From assembly GCF_000336755.1 (NCBI RefSeq), contig NZ_AOLK01000018.1, positions 51,819 through 115,818 on the forward strand: 64,000 bases of DNA. Reading direction: 5' to 3'. The position numbers and the translations under genes were made by a program. Within the stretch, counting starts at the first letter, position 1. Each line of letters opens with the position of its first letter. Source of the DNA: Haloferax elongans ATCC BAA-1513. GTDB taxonomy: Archaea > Halobacteriota > Halobacteria > Halobacteriales > Haloferacaceae. This document shows positions 4,866 to 17,207 of the stretch, one piece after another. Below the pieces are notes generated by a model. That model ran no database searches and was not told the origin of the DNA. It saw only the letters and a program-made list of their open reading frames with translations.

Positions 4866-5180
4866 ATGGCAGACAATACCGACACACACGACAGCAGCGA
4901 CCACCACGACTACTACGGACACAACGAACCCGCAGACCACCACGAACACAGCCACGGACACAGCCATGAACACAGCCACGAACCGGCAGACGAAATCGAG
5001 TTGACCGAGTGTCCCGGCTGTGGTGAACCAATCAGAGGTGCAGACGACATCGTCCGCGGCGACTCGGTGCCCGAGATTCGGTCGATTAGGAAACGGAGCG
5101 TGATGGTCGGTAGACAACCGAACGACCTCTGGCTGTGCAAAGGGTGCGGCGCGACACTGGGTGTCCGAGTTCGAGACTAG
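4866..5180 (+). CDS. His-rich zinc-ribbon protein, 104 aa
   Basis: It starts at ATG 4866. The N-terminal ~40 residues are a His/Asp/Glu repeat tract with HSHGHSHEHSHE (about residues 27-38), a pattern used for nickel or zinc binding in metallochaperones. The C-terminal half carries two Cys pairs, CPGCGEPI and CKGCGATLG, forming one zinc ribbon of the CPxCG type common in haloarchaea. Cytoplasmic, with no membrane segment. It is divergent from dph2, with about 195 nt between starts. The partner or metal is unknown; a role in metal handling is an inference from the His tract. Confidence 0.75.
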   Translation: MADNTDTHDSSDHHDYYGHNEPADHHEHSHGHSHEHSHEPADEIELTECPGCGEPIRGADDIVRGDSVPEIRSIRKRSVMVGRQPNDLWLCKGCGATLGVRVRD

Positions 5181-9167: not shown

Positions 9168-9629
9168 ATGGCTCAGACAGAATTGTTCCTTGGGTTCGTC
9201 GTTGGGGTGGTACTACTGGCGTTCGTCGTGGCGTACGTCGGTCGCGGGTGGCGACAGTACACGGTCAGTGCACCCGTCGGTGGCGGTGGCTCGGGTGGCG
9301 GCAGTGGGGAAACGAGCAGTACCATGTCGAACTGGACCGAGGACCCGACAGTTCTCTCGCTCGCGTTCCTCCTCCTCGCACTCGGGTTCGGCCTGATAGC
9401 TGTCCTCTTCGTCGGCGGCGGGGGCGTGTCCGAAGAGATGACTAACACCGCTGGTGCAGTCCTCGTGGCAGCCACGGTCCTCGTCGTCGTCGCCTACCTC
9501 TTTCACGGGACGTACCATGCCGCCCGGAGTTGGGGCCTCGAACGGTCGCAGGCGGCGCTTCTCGGGTCGTGGGTACTCGGCCTGTTGTTCATCGTCGCCC
9601 TCTCCTTGCGACTCCTCGGCTTCCTCTGA
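9168..9629 (+). CDS. Membrane protein of unknown function, 153 aa
   Basis: ATG 9168. One N-terminal hydrophobic segment (residues ~6-25), then a Gly/Ser-rich external-looking linker (VGGGGSGGGSGETSS, about 37-51), then three more hydrophobic segments (~62-83, 92-111 and 128-150). No known catalytic motif. It is the first gene of a probable operon with the 464-aa membrane protein (86 nt later) and a zinc-finger membrane protein, lying between the FKBP gene and the cytochrome oxidase cluster. A link to respiration is only suggested by position. Confidence 0.65.
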   Translation: MAQTELFLGFVVGVVLLAFVVAYVGRGWRQYTVSAPVGGGGSGGGSGETSSTMSNWTEDPTVLSLAFLLLALGFGLIAVLFVGGGGVSEEMTNTAGAVLVAATVLVVVAYLFHGTYHAARSWGLERSQAALLGSWVLGLLFIVALSLRLLGFL

Positions 9630-9715
9630 GATGTGGGAGATATGCGAGACGTGGACGGCGCTGAAAGACGGGACGTGACCGCCTCTGGAAGGCGACTCAC
9701 CACAGTCACCGAACG

Positions 9716-11110
9716 ATGAGTTTCCAACGTCTGCTGGGCCGCGTCCGCCGCACCCTCGTCGCACTGGCAGTACTCACTGGTAGCCTCGCGGCTGCGACAC
9801 GGCCAGTGGTAGCCCACGCCGGGTCGCTTGGCGGGTCGCTCCAGTCGGTTCCGGCACCGTTCTGGCTGGTGGTCGTCTCCGGGGGCGGTGTCGTCGGCGT
9901 CTCCTTTCTCGTCTCGGCGTTCGTGACCGACGACGAGACACTCGGCGCGTTCGCCCGCCGGAGCGTTGCGCTCGGTCGCCCCGTCGAACTCGTCGGAAGA
10001 GGACTCCAAATCGGCGGCGTGGTTGGGTTGGGTACGGTCGTCGCAGTCGGCTTTTTCGGGCCGAAAGCCGCGATTGCGAATCTCGGCGTGCTCCTCGTCT
10101 GGGTCGGCTGGTGGGCCGGGTTCACGATGCTGACCTACCTCGTCGTGGACGTGTGGCCGCTCGTGAATCCGACGCGGACGCTGGGCACAGCAGTCCGGTC
10201 GCTCGGGGAGTTTCCGACGCGCACCATCCCGGAGGCAGTGGGGTCGTGGCCGAGCGTCGTGGGCCTGCTCGCGCTCGTCTGGGTCGAGGTCGTCAGTCCG
10301 CTTTCGGCCAATCCGCAGGCGCTTGCGGTCGTCGTACTCGGGTATTCAGTCGTGACGGTCGCGGGGGCCGTCGTCTTCGGCGACGCGTGGTTCGACCACG
10401 TCGACCCCGTCTCCCGGGTGTTCCGACTCTACGGCCTGCTCGCACCGGTTCAGCGAACTGACGATGGGTTCTCGGTGTCGTTCCCCGGAGCGGGGTTGGC
10501 CCGCGTCGAGGCGGCGATGGACACCGACGACGTTGCCTTCGTCATCGCCCTCTTGTGGGTGACGACGTACGACGGCCTCGTCTCGACCGTCGCGTGGGGG
10601 CGCGTCCTCGACGCGCTCGCTCCAGTTCCCTCGTGGGTAGTGAACCTCGTCGGCGTCGTCGCCGGCTTTCTCGTCTTCTTCGTCGTCTACCATCGCGCAG
10701 CCGATTCGGCCCGCAAGACCGCCGAGACGTACGTCACCGGCGACTTCATCGCCGGATGGTTCGCACCCGCGTTGGTTCCAATCGCCGCAGGCTACCATCT
10801 CGCCCATTTCGCGGGCTACGTCGTCGGTCTCGCGCCCGCGCTGGCGACAGTCGCATTCGACCCTCTCTCGCCACCGGCGAACATCACGGTGTTAGCTATC
10901 CCGGAGTGGTTCGGTAGTCTACAGCTCGTGTTCGTCGTTCTCGGGCATCTGCTGGCCGTCTGGGTAGCACACACGCGGTCGTTCGACGTGTTTCCGGGGC
11001 GACTGCAACCGCTTCGGAGCCAGTACCCGTTCGTCGTCGTGACCATCTGCTATACGGCGTCGAGTCTCTGGGTCGTCGCGCAGCCGACTCTCGGAGGTGT
11101 CGCGGGATGA
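9716..11110 (+). CDS. Large polytopic membrane protein of unknown function, 464 aa
   Basis: ATG 9716. The N-terminus has a signal-like segment ending near RPVVAHAGSLGG, followed by about eleven hydrophobic segments. Conserved-looking polar features inside the membrane are VYHRAADSA (about 324-332) and GYHLAHFAGY (about 358-367). Histidines in such places often bind haem or copper, but no family motif can be named; a CtaG/CopD-like copper role is a weak guess from the AHA start after the signal. The stop overlaps the next gene by four bases (ATGA), so the two are translationally coupled. Confidence 0.7.
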   Translation: MSFQRLLGRVRRTLVALAVLTGSLAAATRPVVAHAGSLGGSLQSVPAPFWLVVVSGGGVVGVSFLVSAFVTDDETLGAFARRSVALGRPVELVGRGLQIGGVVGLGTVVAVGFFGPKAAIANLGVLLVWVGWWAGFTMLTYLVVDVWPLVNPTRTLGTAVRSLGEFPTRTIPEAVGSWPSVVGLLALVWVEVVSPLSANPQALAVVVLGYSVVTVAGAVVFGDAWFDHVDPVSRVFRLYGLLAPVQRTDDGFSVSFPGAGLARVEAAMDTDDVAFVIALLWVTTYDGLVSTVAWGRVLDALAPVPSWVVNLVGVVAGFLVFFVVYHRAADSARKTAETYVTGDFIAGWFAPALVPIAAGYHLAHFAGYVVGLAPALATVAFDPLSPPANITVLAIPEWFGSLQLVFVVLGHLLAVWVAHTRSFDVFPGRLQPLRSQYPFVVVTICYTASSLWVVAQPTLGGVAG

Positions 11111-11406
11111 GCCGACTGAGAGAACACAAGATGACGACGCCGACCCCCGAGACGAGCGTCCCCGAGGGAGAACAGCCAGTCGCGACGTGTCCCTACTGCG
11201 ACCGACCGTTCCGCCGGGAGCGACTCCGAGACTTGCACGTCGGTGACGTGCACGAGGAGTGGACAGAAGCAGAACGGGAGGCATACGAGGTGGCCGTCGA
11301 AGCCGAGTCCGAAGACCTGTTTCAGTACCACCTGAAGGTCGCGGGGGCACTCGGGGCGACCTACGCGGTGCTGTTCTTGCTCGCAGTGGTCGGATTCAGC
11401 CTGTAA
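11107..11406 (+). CDS. Zinc-finger protein with a C-terminal membrane anchor, 99 aa
   Basis: The start overlaps the previous stop as ATGA. Residues ~28-50 contain CPYCDRPFRRERLRDLHVGDVH, a C2H2-like finger (Cys-x2-Cys, His-x4-His). A charged helix rich in Glu follows (about 52-70), then one hydrophobic segment (LGATYAVLFLLAVVGFSL) ends the protein. It is therefore probably a tail-anchored membrane protein with a cytoplasmic zinc finger. The coupling suggests that it is a subunit or regulator of the 464-aa membrane protein. An IS-type end begins directly after its stop codon. Confidence 0.7.
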   Translation: MSRLREHKMTTPTPETSVPEGEQPVATCPYCDRPFRRERLRDLHVGDVHEEWTEAEREAYEVAVEAESEDLFQYHLKVAGALGATYAVLFLLAVVGFSL

Positions 11407-11482: not shown

Positions 11483-12733
11483 TCAGTCGCCAGCAATAGG
11501 CTGGTGACTCTCGCCGTTCAACGTCCCACCATTTATACGCAGGTCTACTTCTGCGTCTCCGCTCCCCGACGTGGGCGAGGAACGGAGTTTGTGCATCCGC
11601 TTTCGAGCGTAGCGTAGCCCGATATTCTTCGCACCGTTGTAATCCGCGTTCACCTCGTACCCGCACTTCTGGCACTTGAAGCGTTCTCCGTGGCGGTTGT
11701 CCTCGTGCGTGAACCCACAGTCCGTCCGAGAACAGCGTTGGGACGTGTGGTTCGGTTCGACTTGCTCCACGGAGACACCCCGCTCAGGTGCCTTGTAGGA
11801 GACGTACTCGTAGAGGCGTCGGAACGCCCAGACGTGGTGCCACTTCGCCTGCGGAAGCCGCTCACGAATGTCGGTCAAGTCTTCGAACACGATAACATCA
11901 CAGTCGTGTTCGACGGCTTCCGTGACAAGCTCGTTGGCGAGCGTGTGGATGTACTGCTTTCGCCACGCTTCTTCGCGCTTCCCGAGTCGAAGCAAGGCGT
12001 TGTGTGCGGCTTGCGTGCCGCGCTGTTGCATCTCTCCACGCCGCTTCTCAAACTCGCGGCACCAATGGTCGTACTCGTCTCCCTGCCAGAACGTGCCGGT
12101 CGAGGAGACGGCGAGTGAGTTGACGCCGAGGTCGATACCGAGGACCGTTTGGTCGGGGTGCCCGGTATCTGCCGGAACCTCTGCGTCGTCGCCGTCTGTC
12201 CGCCGAGTCGAGAGTTGGATGTAGAACTCGTCATCCACCGCGTCGTACCGAACCGTACTCTCGCGGAACTCGTAATCCTCGGAGAGAACGTATCGCTCGT
12301 AGGGCGTCGGACTGTCTGCCGGGAGAATGAACGACGGTTCGACCCGGCCCTCGACAGTTGCCAGCGACACCTTTTTTCGGTAGAACGTCGCGCTCCGTGC
12401 GTCGTAGTCCATCGTTTCGGCGGTGAACGTCGGACAAGAGACACGCTGTCCCTTCTTCCACCGTTCGACAACGCCCTTGACGGCTTCGACAGCGCGTTTG
12501 ATGGCGGCTTGAACGAGTTGTGCCTGTAGGTCCGTCTCCTCTCGAAGTTCGGAGTAGAGTGCGTCACGAACCTCTCGCTTGTTGGTCTTACACTCGCTGT
12601 AGGAGGTGTCGGACCAACAGTAGTCAGCGGTTCGGTTCGCGCAGTACAGGTATTGCTCGGCGGTTCGGTGGAGTGCGTCGCGTTGCTCGTCGGAAAGGTC
12701 GAGTTTCACGACGGCGGTTCGACGCACGCCCAC
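11483..12733 (-). CDS. tnpB: RNA-guided endonuclease TnpB
   Basis: 416 aa from a GTG. The RuvC nuclease motifs are complete: LGIDLGVN (Asp201), VFEDLTD (Glu284) and NADYNGAKN (Asp364). A four-cysteine zinc finger lies between the last two (Cys334, 339, 354 and 357). The N-terminal ~190 residues are the usual wedge/REC-like part. The full catalytic triad suggests an active nuclease. TnpB cuts DNA next to a target-adjacent motif with an omega-RNA and helps the element persist. A TATA box at 12756-12763 puts the transcript start at about the GTG. Confidence 0.95.
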   Translation of the reverse strand: MGVRRTAVVKLDLSDEQRDALHRTAEQYLYCANRTADYCWSDTSYSECKTNKREVRDALYSELREETDLQAQLVQAAIKRAVEAVKGVVERWKKGQRVSCPTFTAETMDYDARSATFYRKKVSLATVEGRVEPSFILPADSPTPYERYVLSEDYEFRESTVRYDAVDDEFYIQLSTRRTDGDDAEVPADTGHPDQTVLGIDLGVNSLAVSSTGTFWQGDEYDHWCREFEKRRGEMQQRGTQAAHNALLRLGKREEAWRKQYIHTLANELVTEAVEHDCDVIVFEDLTDIRERLPQAKWHHVWAFRRLYEYVSYKAPERGVSVEQVEPNHTSQRCSRTDCGFTHEDNRHGERFKCQKCGYEVNADYNGAKNIGLRYARKRMHKLRSSPTSGSGDAEVDLRINGGTLNGESHQPIAGD

Positions 12734-12913: not shown

Positions 12914-13129
12914 TCACGCGTGGCCGTGTTCGTGGTCGCTGTCGGAATCAGCCGGCTCAGGTAGTCGCATCACGACCGCAGTGAGAACGGCGACGCCGAG
13001 AATCGCAACCGCACCGCCCGCAGCGATGACAACTTCGCCCGCGCCGACCGCCTCCGCGACGAGCAGAATGACGAGTCCGAGCACGACGCCGACGAACGAG
13101 ATGCCAAGCTCGACCGAGTGTTCAGCCAT
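12914..13129 (-). CDS. Small membrane protein of the oxidase cluster, 71 aa
   Basis: ATG ending at 13129, chosen over an upstream GTG because it starts MAEHSVELGI just before the first hydrophobic segment. Two membrane segments (about residues 8-30 and 35-58) are joined by a short Gly-rich turn. The C-terminus is acidic and His-rich (DSDSDHEHGHA), which could bind a metal. It is the last gene of the cox cluster, 60 nt after the preceding small membrane gene. Function unknown. Confidence 0.65.
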   Translation of the reverse strand: MAEHSVELGISFVGVVLGLVILLVAEAVGAGEVVIAAGGAVAILGVAVLTAVVMRLPEPADSDSDHEHGHA

Positions 13130-13189: not shown

Positions 13190-13462
13190 TCAATTCGTTG
13201 CGTTCTCGCCGCTTCTGGCCGCGACAACGACGAGAGCAAAGACGGCAATACCGAGCAAGAGTCCTGGGCCGACGACGAGCGGCGTGGTGAGACTGCCGGG
13301 AACGACGCGAGTCATCATGACAGTCACGCCGACGCCGACGGGGACCGAAAAGAGGAGCGCGTAGGCGACAGCCGTGCGTAGCGAGGGGCTGTCGCTAACC
13401 GCGGGGGCAGGGCCAGAGTCGGCCTCAACGTCGGCTGTCGAATCTGAACGCGTCACGGTCAC
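13190..13462 (-). CDS. Small two-segment membrane protein of the cox cluster (DUF6684-like)
   Basis: 90 aa from a GTG that overlaps the coxD stop by four bases (GTGA). An acidic, Ser/Thr-rich N-terminus of ~28 residues is followed by two hydrophobic segments (about 30-52 and 58-82) separated by RVVPGSLTTPLV. The place in the operon and the shape match the small cox-cluster proteins annotated in haloarchaea. A direct role in oxidase assembly or as a minor subunit is an inference. Confidence 0.7.
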   Translation of the reverse strand: MTVTRSDSTADVEADSGPAPAVSDSPSLRTAVAYALLFSVPVGVGVTVMMTRVVPGSLTTPLVVGPGLLLGIAVFALVVVAARSGENATN

Positions 13463-13719
13463 AGGAGCGAGTACGACGCTGCGACCGTGAGCGCCAGTGC
13501 TGCCACGAGGCCGATGCCGACCAGATACGTCAGCGACCGCGGCTCCCAGCGGAGGTGCTGGAAGTACGCCGCGACCAGCACGGCCTTCGCCGCCGAGAGG
13601 ACCATGATGATGCCGAAGGCAGTCCAGTAGGCTAACCCCGCGAACTCGACGAGGACCTGCACCGTCGCCGAGACGAACAATACCACGTAAATCGCCGTAT
13701 AGAATTTTGTTGATACCAT
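13459..13719 (-). CDS. coxD: Cytochrome c oxidase subunit IV-type protein
   Basis: 86 aa from the ATG ending at 13719. A Shine-Dalgarno-like GAGGTGA lies five bases upstream and decides against the in-frame GTG at 13728. Three hydrophobic segments (about residues 8-28, 32-52 and 62-83) carry the hallmark KAVLVAAYFQHLRWE of the bacterial/archaeal COX4 (CtaF) family. It is a small accessory subunit that stabilises the haem-copper oxidase. It follows the coxAC gene and shares a four-base overlap with the next small gene. Confidence 0.88.
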   Translation of the reverse strand: MVSTKFYTAIYVVLFVSATVQVLVEFAGLAYWTAFGIIMVLSAAKAVLVAAYFQHLRWEPRSLTYLVGIGLVAALALTVAASYSLL

Positions 13720-13729
13720 CTTCGTCACC

Positions 13730-16312
13730 TCACAGGATGTAGAACAGCGGGAAGAGGAACAACCAGACGATGTCGACGAAGTGCCAGTAGAGGCCGAAGT
13801 ACTCCACCGACCGGTTGTCTTCGAGGTACGCGCCTCTCCATGCGCGTGCGGTCAGATACAGTGCGATGATGAGCCCCGCGATGACGTGGGCCGCGTGCAG
13901 CCCCGTCGTGAGGAAGAACGTCGATGTCCGGACGTTCGTCGAGAGCCACAGCCCCTCGTGGAAGAGGTGCTGCCACTCCAACGCCTTGTTGACGAGGAAG
14001 CCGATGCCGAGGACGAAGGTGGCACCGAGGCTCGTGACGAGCCCCAGTTTGTGCTTCTTCTCGGCGGCGACGAGCGCGAGGACGACGGTGAAACTGCTCG
14101 TCAACAGGATGTACGTGTTGACGAGGCCGGGAATCGGGTCGTCCGGGACGGGTTGCCACCCGGTCCATCCGAAGGCGAATCGCGTGAAGATGTACGCGCC
14201 GAGGAAGCCGCCGAACAGCACCACGTCGGACGCGAGGAATATCCACATCCCCACCTTACCGTTGTCGATGCCGGAGAACGGCCACGCCTCGCCCTCGTCG
14301 AAGACCGGACCGTGGAACGGTTCGAGGCCCATCGCGATGAGCGACCCGAGCGTGACGCCGAACCCCGCGACTGCAGTCGTCGCGTAGGCGGCCCCCATCA
14401 TCCCCTCAGGGAACGCAGCGTCTTGCAGCGGGGAGATACCGAGCAAGATGAGGAACGCGCCCAGTGAGAGGACGAACGGCCAGATGCTCGCGTGGCTCGG
14501 CCCTTCGACCTCGGTGGCCTCGACCGTCGGCTCGTACTCTGTCGTGACTGCGGTGTGTGGCGACGTAGCCACGCCGCCGCCTGCGGTTGCACCCCCACTG
14601 CCGTCGGCAGCCGTTGCACCGCCTGTCACGTCAGACTCTCTGTCGAGGATGAATGACAGGTGGCCGTCGCGGTAGGTCGGCGTGCCCTCGAAGTTTTCGA
14701 GCGGTGGCGGCGACGAGACGGCCCACTCGGCGGTGGTCGCGTACTCCCACGGGTTGTCGGAGACGGGGTCGCCCGTGAAGGCGCTCTTGAACAGGTTGTA
14801 GAACATGATGAGGAACGACAACCCGAGGACGAACCCACCGATTGTGGCGAGTTGGTGCCACGGCGCGAGTTCCGGTGCGTAGTCGAAGACGCGGCGCGGC
14901 GTCTCCCACGCGACGAAAAGCGGGAAGTACAGCAGATTGAAGCCGACGAAGTAGGCCGCGAAGTGGACCTTCCCGAGGAACTCGTCGTACATCCGGCCGG
15001 TAATCTTCGGGAACCAGTAGTAGAGGCCCCCGACGAGCGCCGTCACACCCCCGACCATCACGTAGTGGAAGTGCGCGACGACCCAGTAGGTGCCGCGGAA
15101 CTCGTAGTCGAGGACGACAGCACCGAGGAAGACGCCCGTGATACCGCCGATGATGAACAACAGGAGCGCCCCGAAGACGAAGAGGAAGGGCGTCGTGAAG
15201 CGTATCTTCCCCTTCAACATGGTGTAGATGAGCGCGAAGACCATCAGGTCGAACGGCAGCGAGATGCCGATGGTCGTAATCATAAAGAGCGTCTTCACCT
15301 GGAGGTTGATGCTCGTCAGGAACATGTGGTGCATCCAGACGACGAAGCTCTGAATCGCCACGAGCACCATCGCGATGATGAACCACTTCCGCCCGACGAT
15401 GCGGCGGCCGGTGAACGTCTGGAACACCTCGGCCATGACGCCGAGCGCCGGGAAGAACACGATGTACACCTCGGGGTGGCCGAAGAACCAAAAGAGGTGT
15501 GTCCAGAGGAGTGCCCCCGCTGGCGACTCCATCGCGAAGTAGGTCGTCCCGAGCAGTCGGTCCGCCGAGAGGACCATCAGCGCGGCGAGGAGCGCCGCGA
15601 AGGCGAAGAGCATCATCCAGACGGTGAGGAGAATCGTCCAGCTAAACAGCGGCATATTGCGGAGTGTCAGCCCCTCCGCCCGCATGCGATGCATCGTCGT
15701 CAGGAAATTGACCGACGAGACGGTGACGGAGGCGACGAACAAGACGAGTGCCAACACCGCCGTCGACGCCCCAACGTCCGGTGTGAACGTCGGGACGTTT
15801 AGCGGGGCATACATCGTCCACCCGCCGGAGAAGGTGCCGCCTTGGAAGAACGAGACGCCGAAGAGGATGCCAGAAAAGAGATAGAGCCAGTAGGAAAGCG
15901 CGTTCAGTCGGGGGAACGCGAGGTCTTTCGCGCCGAGTTGGAGCGGGACGATGTAGTTCGCAAAGCCGAACGCGAACGGAGAGAGGAACCAAAACACCAT
16001 CAACAGCCCGTGGGCCGAGACGGCCTGATTGTACGCGACCGGGGCGAGAATCGTCTCACCCGGTGCACGCGGTGCCCACAGTTGGATGCGCATCAACCAC
16101 GCGAGGACGCCGCCGAGGACGAGGAAGAAAAGCGATGTGACGATGTAGAGGATGCCGACGTCTTTGTGATTCGTCGTGACGAACCAGCGCTTGATACTGC
16201 CCGTCCCCGGGAAGTCGTGACCGTGGTCGTGGTCGTCCTCGTGGCCGCCTGCGACGACTTCACTCCCGACTTCTGTGCCACCGTCTGTCCGTTCTGGGTC
16301 CGTGTCGCTCAT
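13730..16312 (-). CDS. coxAC: Haem-copper cytochrome oxidase, fused subunits I and III
   Basis: 860 aa, a CoxA-CoxC fusion. Residues ~35-560 are subunit I with twelve membrane segments: [17 protein letters not shown] (CuB His and cross-linked Tyr), HHMFL (CuB His pair) and [14 protein letters not shown] (haem ligands). [13 protein letters not shown] is the D-channel entry, so this is a type A proton pump. After a variable linker (about 560-640), [14 protein letters not shown] begins subunit III, ending with the [14 protein letters not shown] helix. It reduces O2 to water at the cell membrane. Its start overlaps the coxB stop (ATGA). Confidence 0.97.
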
Positions 16313-17067
16313 GCTGGTCGTGCCTCCACGAATGCGGTCTGGTTTTCGGTGCTCACACTTTCGCTACTCCCGTTCCCGGTGCTTTCGTACCACTCCTCGT
16401 ACTCGTCAGGAGGCATGACGATGACCTCCGCGGACATGTACGAGTGGCCAGCGCCACACAGTTCGTAACACTGGGCAGTGTACGTCCCAGTCTCGTTGGC
16501 GACGAACCACGTCTCGGTCTCCTGACCGGGAATTGCGTCGGTCTTGACGCGCAACTCTGGGATACCGAAGTTGTGGAACACGTCGGCTGACGTCACTTGC
16601 AACCTGACTGGCTGTTCTGCCGGGATGCGAAGGACGCCGTCGGTCGTGTGGCCGTTCGGATAGGTGAATCGCCATCCGAACTGGTAGCCTTCGGCTTCGA
16701 TATCCAACGAGTTGTCCGCCGACGGACCCTCTTCGACGTACAGAAGCGTCAGGTAGGTCCACGAAATCAGCGAGACGACGATAATCATGCTCATGAAAAA
16801 CGACGTGGCAAGTTTTCTCCCGCCCCCACTGCCCGTCGGAAGCTCGCCCAGCACGGGGCGGTCTCCGACCTCCTCGTCTCCCTTTGTAGCCCCGGAGCGA
16901 TACTTGTAGGCGTTGTACAGCATATAGCCGATGACCACCACCCCGACGAGCGTCCCGAGGAGCAGGAACACCTCGAAGATACTCTCGAAGACGATGATGC
17001 GCGACCCCCGCGGGACGAGACCCGACTGGAGGAAAAGCGGGCTACTGCCGACGAGTGTTGTGCCCAT
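16309..17067 (-). CDS. coxB: Cytochrome c oxidase subunit II
   Basis: 252 aa from the ATG ending at 17067; a GTG/ATG pair lies 9-12 nt upstream. A signal-like N-terminus is followed by two membrane helices (about residues 25-48 and 85-105), then an outside cupredoxin domain. The CuA ligands are present: [13 protein letters not shown] (first His) and [13 protein letters not shown] (Cys-x3-Cys, His, Met). It takes electrons from a halocyanin-type or cytochrome donor and passes them to haem a. The donor gene is not in the window. It heads the coxB-coxAC-coxD order. Confidence 0.95.
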
Positions 17068-17207
17068 TGATAACATCACCCACCCATGTTAATTAACGTT
17101 CATGATAATCACTGTTTCGGCGAACGGCGGTCACTTGGCGCTAGGTGGCAAAAACAGGAAGAATGTGGGTTGTGGTGGCTACCAGCGGTGGCCTGTTTCG
17201 AAGCCGA

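Follow-up and report, generated by a model that had tools for sequence, protein, structure and literature searches.

It is proposed here, with somewhat better than even confidence, that P464, a 464-aa ten-helix membrane protein, and the DUF7410 protein encoded next to it form a copper-supplying or copper-inserting membrane module that serves the aa3-type oxidase encoded alongside. The P464 family as a whole lacks a Pfam model, occurs in both archaea and bacteria, has invariant histidines and counts copper enzymes among its gene neighbours; it is best read as serving the copper supply or the assembly of the oxidase and of other copper enzymes. Cox11 and Caa3_CtaG, the two known factors of the CuB type, were found in none of 59 haloarchaeal genomes (0/59, controls working), leaving a gap that P464 could fill and making it a testable candidate for copper insertion into haloarchaeal oxidases; SCO1 was present in 48 of the same 59. 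If true, the proposal would connect the assembly of oxidases with the way in which methane-monooxygenase-type enzymes are loaded with copper, a process that is poorly understood.

The P464-DUF7410 gene pair and its surroundings

The following features were found in the window, that is, the whole 64,000-nucleotide stretch of Haloferax elongans DNA that was analysed:

9168-9629, + strand: TM153, a 153-aa four-helix membrane protein of the cox cluster (34 profile matches)
9716-11110, + strand: P464, a 464-aa ten-helix membrane protein with a predicted signal peptide; H364, H411 and H419 invariant; no Pfam or NCBIfam match
9716-9814, + strand: predicted Sec signal peptide of P464, residues 1-33, with the cut between ...PVVA and HAGS (A33-H34 conserved; judged by eye)
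11107-11406, + strand: DUF7410 protein, with CPYCDRPF...LHVGDVH and one C-terminal TM helix (PF24166, E 9.5e-14)
11483-12709, - strand: TnpB-family gene of an insertion element, outside the system (NF040570, 2.1e-50)
13459-13719, - strand: cox4, cytochrome c oxidase subunit IV (PF03626, E 1.3e-12)
13730-16312, - strand: coxAC, fused oxidase subunits I and III (PF00115, 6.7e-133; PF00510, 6.9e-18)
16309-17079, - strand: coxB, oxidase subunit II with CuA (TIGR02866, 4e-63)

The three plus-strand open reading frames that the initial annotation had placed here are present, and they are not chance ORFs because their proteins are conserved in many genomes. TM153 is separated from P464 by 86 bp, and the stop of P464 overlaps the start of DUF7410 in an ATGA (11107-11110), in agreement with the coupling proposed for the 464-aa and zinc-finger genes; a 4-nt overlap also occurs in 21 of the 36 relatives that have DUF7410 downstream. 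The DUF7410 protein has 99 aa, or 91 aa if started at 11131. Downstream of the pair, cox4, coxAC and coxB lie on the opposite strand, and the TnpB-type insertion separates DUF7410 from cox4. In H. larsenii, which among named relatives is the closest (its P464 is 95% identical), the genes are arranged in the same way (L012), and the TnpB element is absent from the equivalent site. Two small membrane proteins are encoded between the insertion and cox4 (12914-13129 and 13190-13462) and are conserved in other Haloferax, the first having a His-rich C-terminal tail (DHEHGHA). Elsewhere in the window, at 4866-5180 and adjoining a Dph2-like gene, a small His-rich protein with CxxC pairs (EHSHGHSHEHSHE...CPGCG...CKGCG) looks metal-binding from its sequence.

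Among 40 P464 regions used as the neighbourhood set (L090-L129), DUF7410 follows P464 on the same strand in 36. The window's 99-aa protein is a member of this family (51.4 bits against a curated cut-off of 27.5 for PF24166), containing a single CxxC...HxxxxH finger and one C-terminal hydrophobic segment. The description of the 153-aa protein as four-segment agrees with a low-confidence model of TM153 (pLDDT 67), which has four helices. TM153 is missing from most cases of the second cox architecture described below, and a homologue adjoins coxB in coxAC clusters that have no P464 (L178, L179, L183; genera g2 and g4). Of the three-gene unit first described, the P464-DUF7410 pair is thus constant, whereas TM153 is variable and occurs beside cox genes without P464, so the set is better seen as these two paired genes within a cox cluster.

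Other Haloferax have a DUF7546 gene (PF24412) between TM153 and P464; it is missing at the present locus, and a distant copy is found elsewhere in the same genome. DUF7546 also adjoins or lies close to the CtaA/CtaB fusion of second-layout haloarchaeal cox operons (L101, L105, L107, L118), and is a further candidate assembly protein. DUF7410 and DUF7546 are both families without an assigned function, and a literature search on DUF7410 or the coxAC2 neighbourhood found nothing useful.

Linkage to oxidase genes in Halobacteria

P464 was found in 207 of 292 Halobacteria genomes (56/77 genera) and DUF7410 in 178 of 284 (50/76 genera). COX1 is nearly universal (280/284 genomes), so its co-occurrence with P464 is uninformative, and linkage was measured by position instead. 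Taking the best P464 per genus (n = 38), 32 genera have cox genes no more than about 9.5 kb away, whereas control positions on the same contigs, mostly 100 kb off, have them in 2 of 38 (Fisher p about 9e-13); the query was the cox-linked copy, which favours cox-linked paralogues, and genera are not fully independent. Regions L128 and L129 were excluded from the 38 because they had been chosen for cox genes already seen there. The layout of the window (coxAC-cox4-coxB) accounts for 13 of the cox-linked cases. A second layout accounts for 17, in which cox3 is a separate gene adjoining or close to P464; several of them also have CtaA/CtaB, coxB and cox1 around. The position beside the oxidase cluster, to which the initial annotation gave weight, is therefore meaningful: it recurs across genera and in two cox layouts. 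The co-occurrence with coxAC that it suggested examining is upheld as positional linkage, and not as strict co-occurrence, since coxAC is present without P464 in Halorubrum-like genomes (a presumed label for genus g2) and in several others. P464 is thus not generally required for the oxidase.

The same neighbourhoods bear on two other explanations. According to one, to which only a very small probability is given, P464, together with TM153, belongs to the structure of the oxidase complex as an accessory subunit; the genes are tightly placed, and COX3 is often immediately adjacent, as it is in Mycobacterium gallinarum too. Against this, P464 also occurs without an oxidase nearby in six haloarchaeal regions (L094, L095, L103, L117, L125 and L127), a signal peptide is predicted for it, it has a coupled partner of its own, and bacterial copies accompany pMMO-type genes. 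Within the regions without a nearby oxidase, L103 has P464 near a heavy-metal ATPase, L125 has it near a Tp34-like lipoprotein, and L095 (8494-13228) has the P464-DUF7410 pair near a copper nitrite reductase (NirK) and a halocyanin.

According to the other, P464 would carry or insert haem A or B for the oxidase via its transmembrane histidines. The second-layout clusters L101 and L112 (also L128 and L129) contain CtaA/CtaB for haem-A synthesis, coxB, cox3, P464, DUF7410 and sometimes cox1, and clustering with the CtaA/CtaB fusion is frequent (also L105, L107 and L118); moreover, the invariant intramembrane histidines resemble haem sites, membrane His pairs being able to bind haem. Nevertheless, copper enzymes without haem and copper carriers (pMMO type, CopC, PCu(A)C, NirK and a cupredoxin partner) are encoded beside relatives of P464, which makes haem handling quite unlikely. 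Copper is preferred because it is common to cox, NirK, pMMO-type enzymes, CopC, PCu(A)C and the cupredoxin, haem being shared only with cox. Of the metal or haem delivery first suggested for this locus, the metal part is accordingly retained, as copper, and haem is the less likely part.

Conserved histidines and bacterial relatives of P464

An AlphaFold2 model of mature P464, built from archaeal alignment rows only, is confident (pLDDT 90.3, pTM 0.90), its first 12 mature residues being unreliable. Ten TM segments with an N-out/C-out topology are predicted from the helices and charge (13 K/R inside, 2 outside). H364 in TM8, H411 and H419 in TM9, and T447 are identical in all 62 P464 sequences compared, from archaea and bacteria, and Y360 is kept in 61 of the 62. 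Of the two intramembrane His motifs highlighted in the initial annotation, the first (H326, in YHRAADSA) is mostly R or W in relatives, whereas in the second H364 alone is invariant; H411 and H419 had not been noted there, and neither had H34, which is widely conserved.

H34 occurs in all ten bacterial relatives and in most archaeal ones, and stands just behind an A-x-A-like site with which the predicted signal peptide ends. If cut at the predicted site, mature P464 would begin with His34; histidine-brace copper proteins start with His. In one clade, which includes the paralogue of the same genome and some cox-linked copies, Ser-Asn replaces this position.

A comparison of P464 and 72 relatives with Pfam, NCBIfam and PDB sequences gave no match. 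The two halves of P464 show no internal repeat (hhalign E 0.17). The model had no clear match in the PDB (Foldseek best E 0.048; VIA best Z 5.1, rmsd 5.5, 114 aligned), which does not prove that the fold is new. A likeness to nucleoside or phosphate transporters (Foldseek E about 0.05, TM about 0.2) was taken as noise. Actinobacterial relatives are, presumably, sometimes named 'fenitrothion hydrolase'; a literature search for this name returned no usable sequence or evidence, and the name was set aside.

A search of a plasmid collection, the only source of the bacterial sample, found relatives in Mycolicibacterium, Rhodococcus, Pseudonocardia, Nonomuraea, Rhizobium, Sulfitobacter, Sagittula and Variovorax. 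Directly upstream of P464, seven of the ten bacterial loci encode a small protein with an invariant HxH, usually a later His and, in several, a lipoprotein-like signal. It is considered cupredoxin-like because its profile matches oxidase subunit 2 in the CuA domain (E 1.8e-4), with weaker matches to laccases, Cu nitrite reductase and nitrosocyanin; a cupredoxin fold is probable, its certainty being limited by two designed immunoglobulin-like proteins that scored slightly above the CuA matches. The M. chubuense and M. dioxanotrophicus copies adjoin methane/ammonia-monooxygenase-type (pMMO-type) genes, that of Sulfitobacter adjoins PCu(A)C, and that of Mycobacterium gallinarum has CopC on one side and COX3 on the other, a CsoR-type repressor and Caa3_CtaG also being close by.

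The second copy in the window's own genome (C19, L054 5067-10696) lies on one strand with its neighbours, the order being a Tp34/DUF7350-like lipoprotein, DUF7410, the P464 paralogue and a heavy-metal P-type ATPase. This ATPase scores 496 bits with the Cd/Zn-type model and 426 with the Cu-type, both above cut-off, and the lipoprotein is of the Tp34/iron type. These neighbours count against copper for the whole family: the paralogue clade may deal with a different metal, which would fit its loss of H34. Widespread occurrence without cox genes, which the initial annotation regarded as evidence against an oxidase role, is seen in part, in the haloarchaeal subfamily with heavy-metal ATPases and in most sampled bacterial copies, which are off-oxidase and mostly beside copper proteins. 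The subfamily with P-type ATPases and Tp34-like lipoproteins, together with the many bacterial copies that adjoin no oxidase, would suit a general metal importer or exporter in homeostasis, placed near the oxidase merely through the clustering of copper genes and having no contact with it. This explanation is nevertheless judged unlikely, as P464 is conserved within complete cox operons of two layouts; its ten-TM model also lacks a clear likeness to a solved transporter, although that search is weak evidence.

Proposed route of copper and comparison with known systems

Copper supply to the oxidase by P464 and DUF7410 remains the preferred reading, and binding and movement of copper by P464 are suggested by its gene neighbours and conserved histidines. 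In the proposed route, the signal peptide would export P464 so that the new N-terminus, His34, is predicted on the outer face. Copper would then be captured on the outer side, the partner cupredoxin doing this in bacteria and His34 or another donor in haloarchaea, and would pass to the intramembrane H364 of TM8 and H411/H419 of TM9, residues whose conservation is observed and whose copper binding is presumed. From there it may be delivered to the oxidase, where a site embedded in the membrane, such as CuB, is the most plausible recipient. DUF7410, with its finger in the cytosol, might regulate or anchor P464, which is the weakest step. The sensor role first suggested for the zinc finger is a conjecture that the single finger motif and TM helix do not specifically support. 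A more specific and rather doubtful version is that P464 represents a new family of intramembrane copper insertases, defined by an N-terminal His and three invariant membrane His, which replaces Cox11/CtaG for CuB in haloarchaea and, in bacteria, together with the partner cupredoxin, loads further copper enzymes, membrane-bound or secreted, for example those of the pMMO type.

Like P464, Cox11/CtaG and Caa3_CtaG are membrane-bound and encoded in or beside cox operons, and the role proposed for P464 in copper assembly resembles theirs; Caa3_CtaG even occurs near P464 on the M. gallinarum plasmid. A sequence relation was not found: Pfam searches gave no match to Cox11 (PF04442) for P464 or the 72 relatives (E 1 or 0.5) and none to Caa3_CtaG (PF09678) for P464, with hhalign against one CtaG at E 0.75. 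SCO1/SenC and PCu(A)C are copper chaperones of the CuA site and thus supply copper to the oxidase, as proposed for P464, but they are soluble or single-anchor proteins with a thioredoxin-like or beta-sandwich structure, unrelated to it in sequence. With CopC-CopD (PF04234, PF05425) the resemblance is functional, an outer-face copper-binding protein or N-terminal His being combined with a polytopic His-bearing membrane protein. P464 had no Pfam match to CopD (hhalign against a haloarchaeal CopD, E 0.11 over 20 columns), whose domain has about 105 residues, compared with the ten helices of P464; CopC itself adjoins P464 in M. gallinarum.
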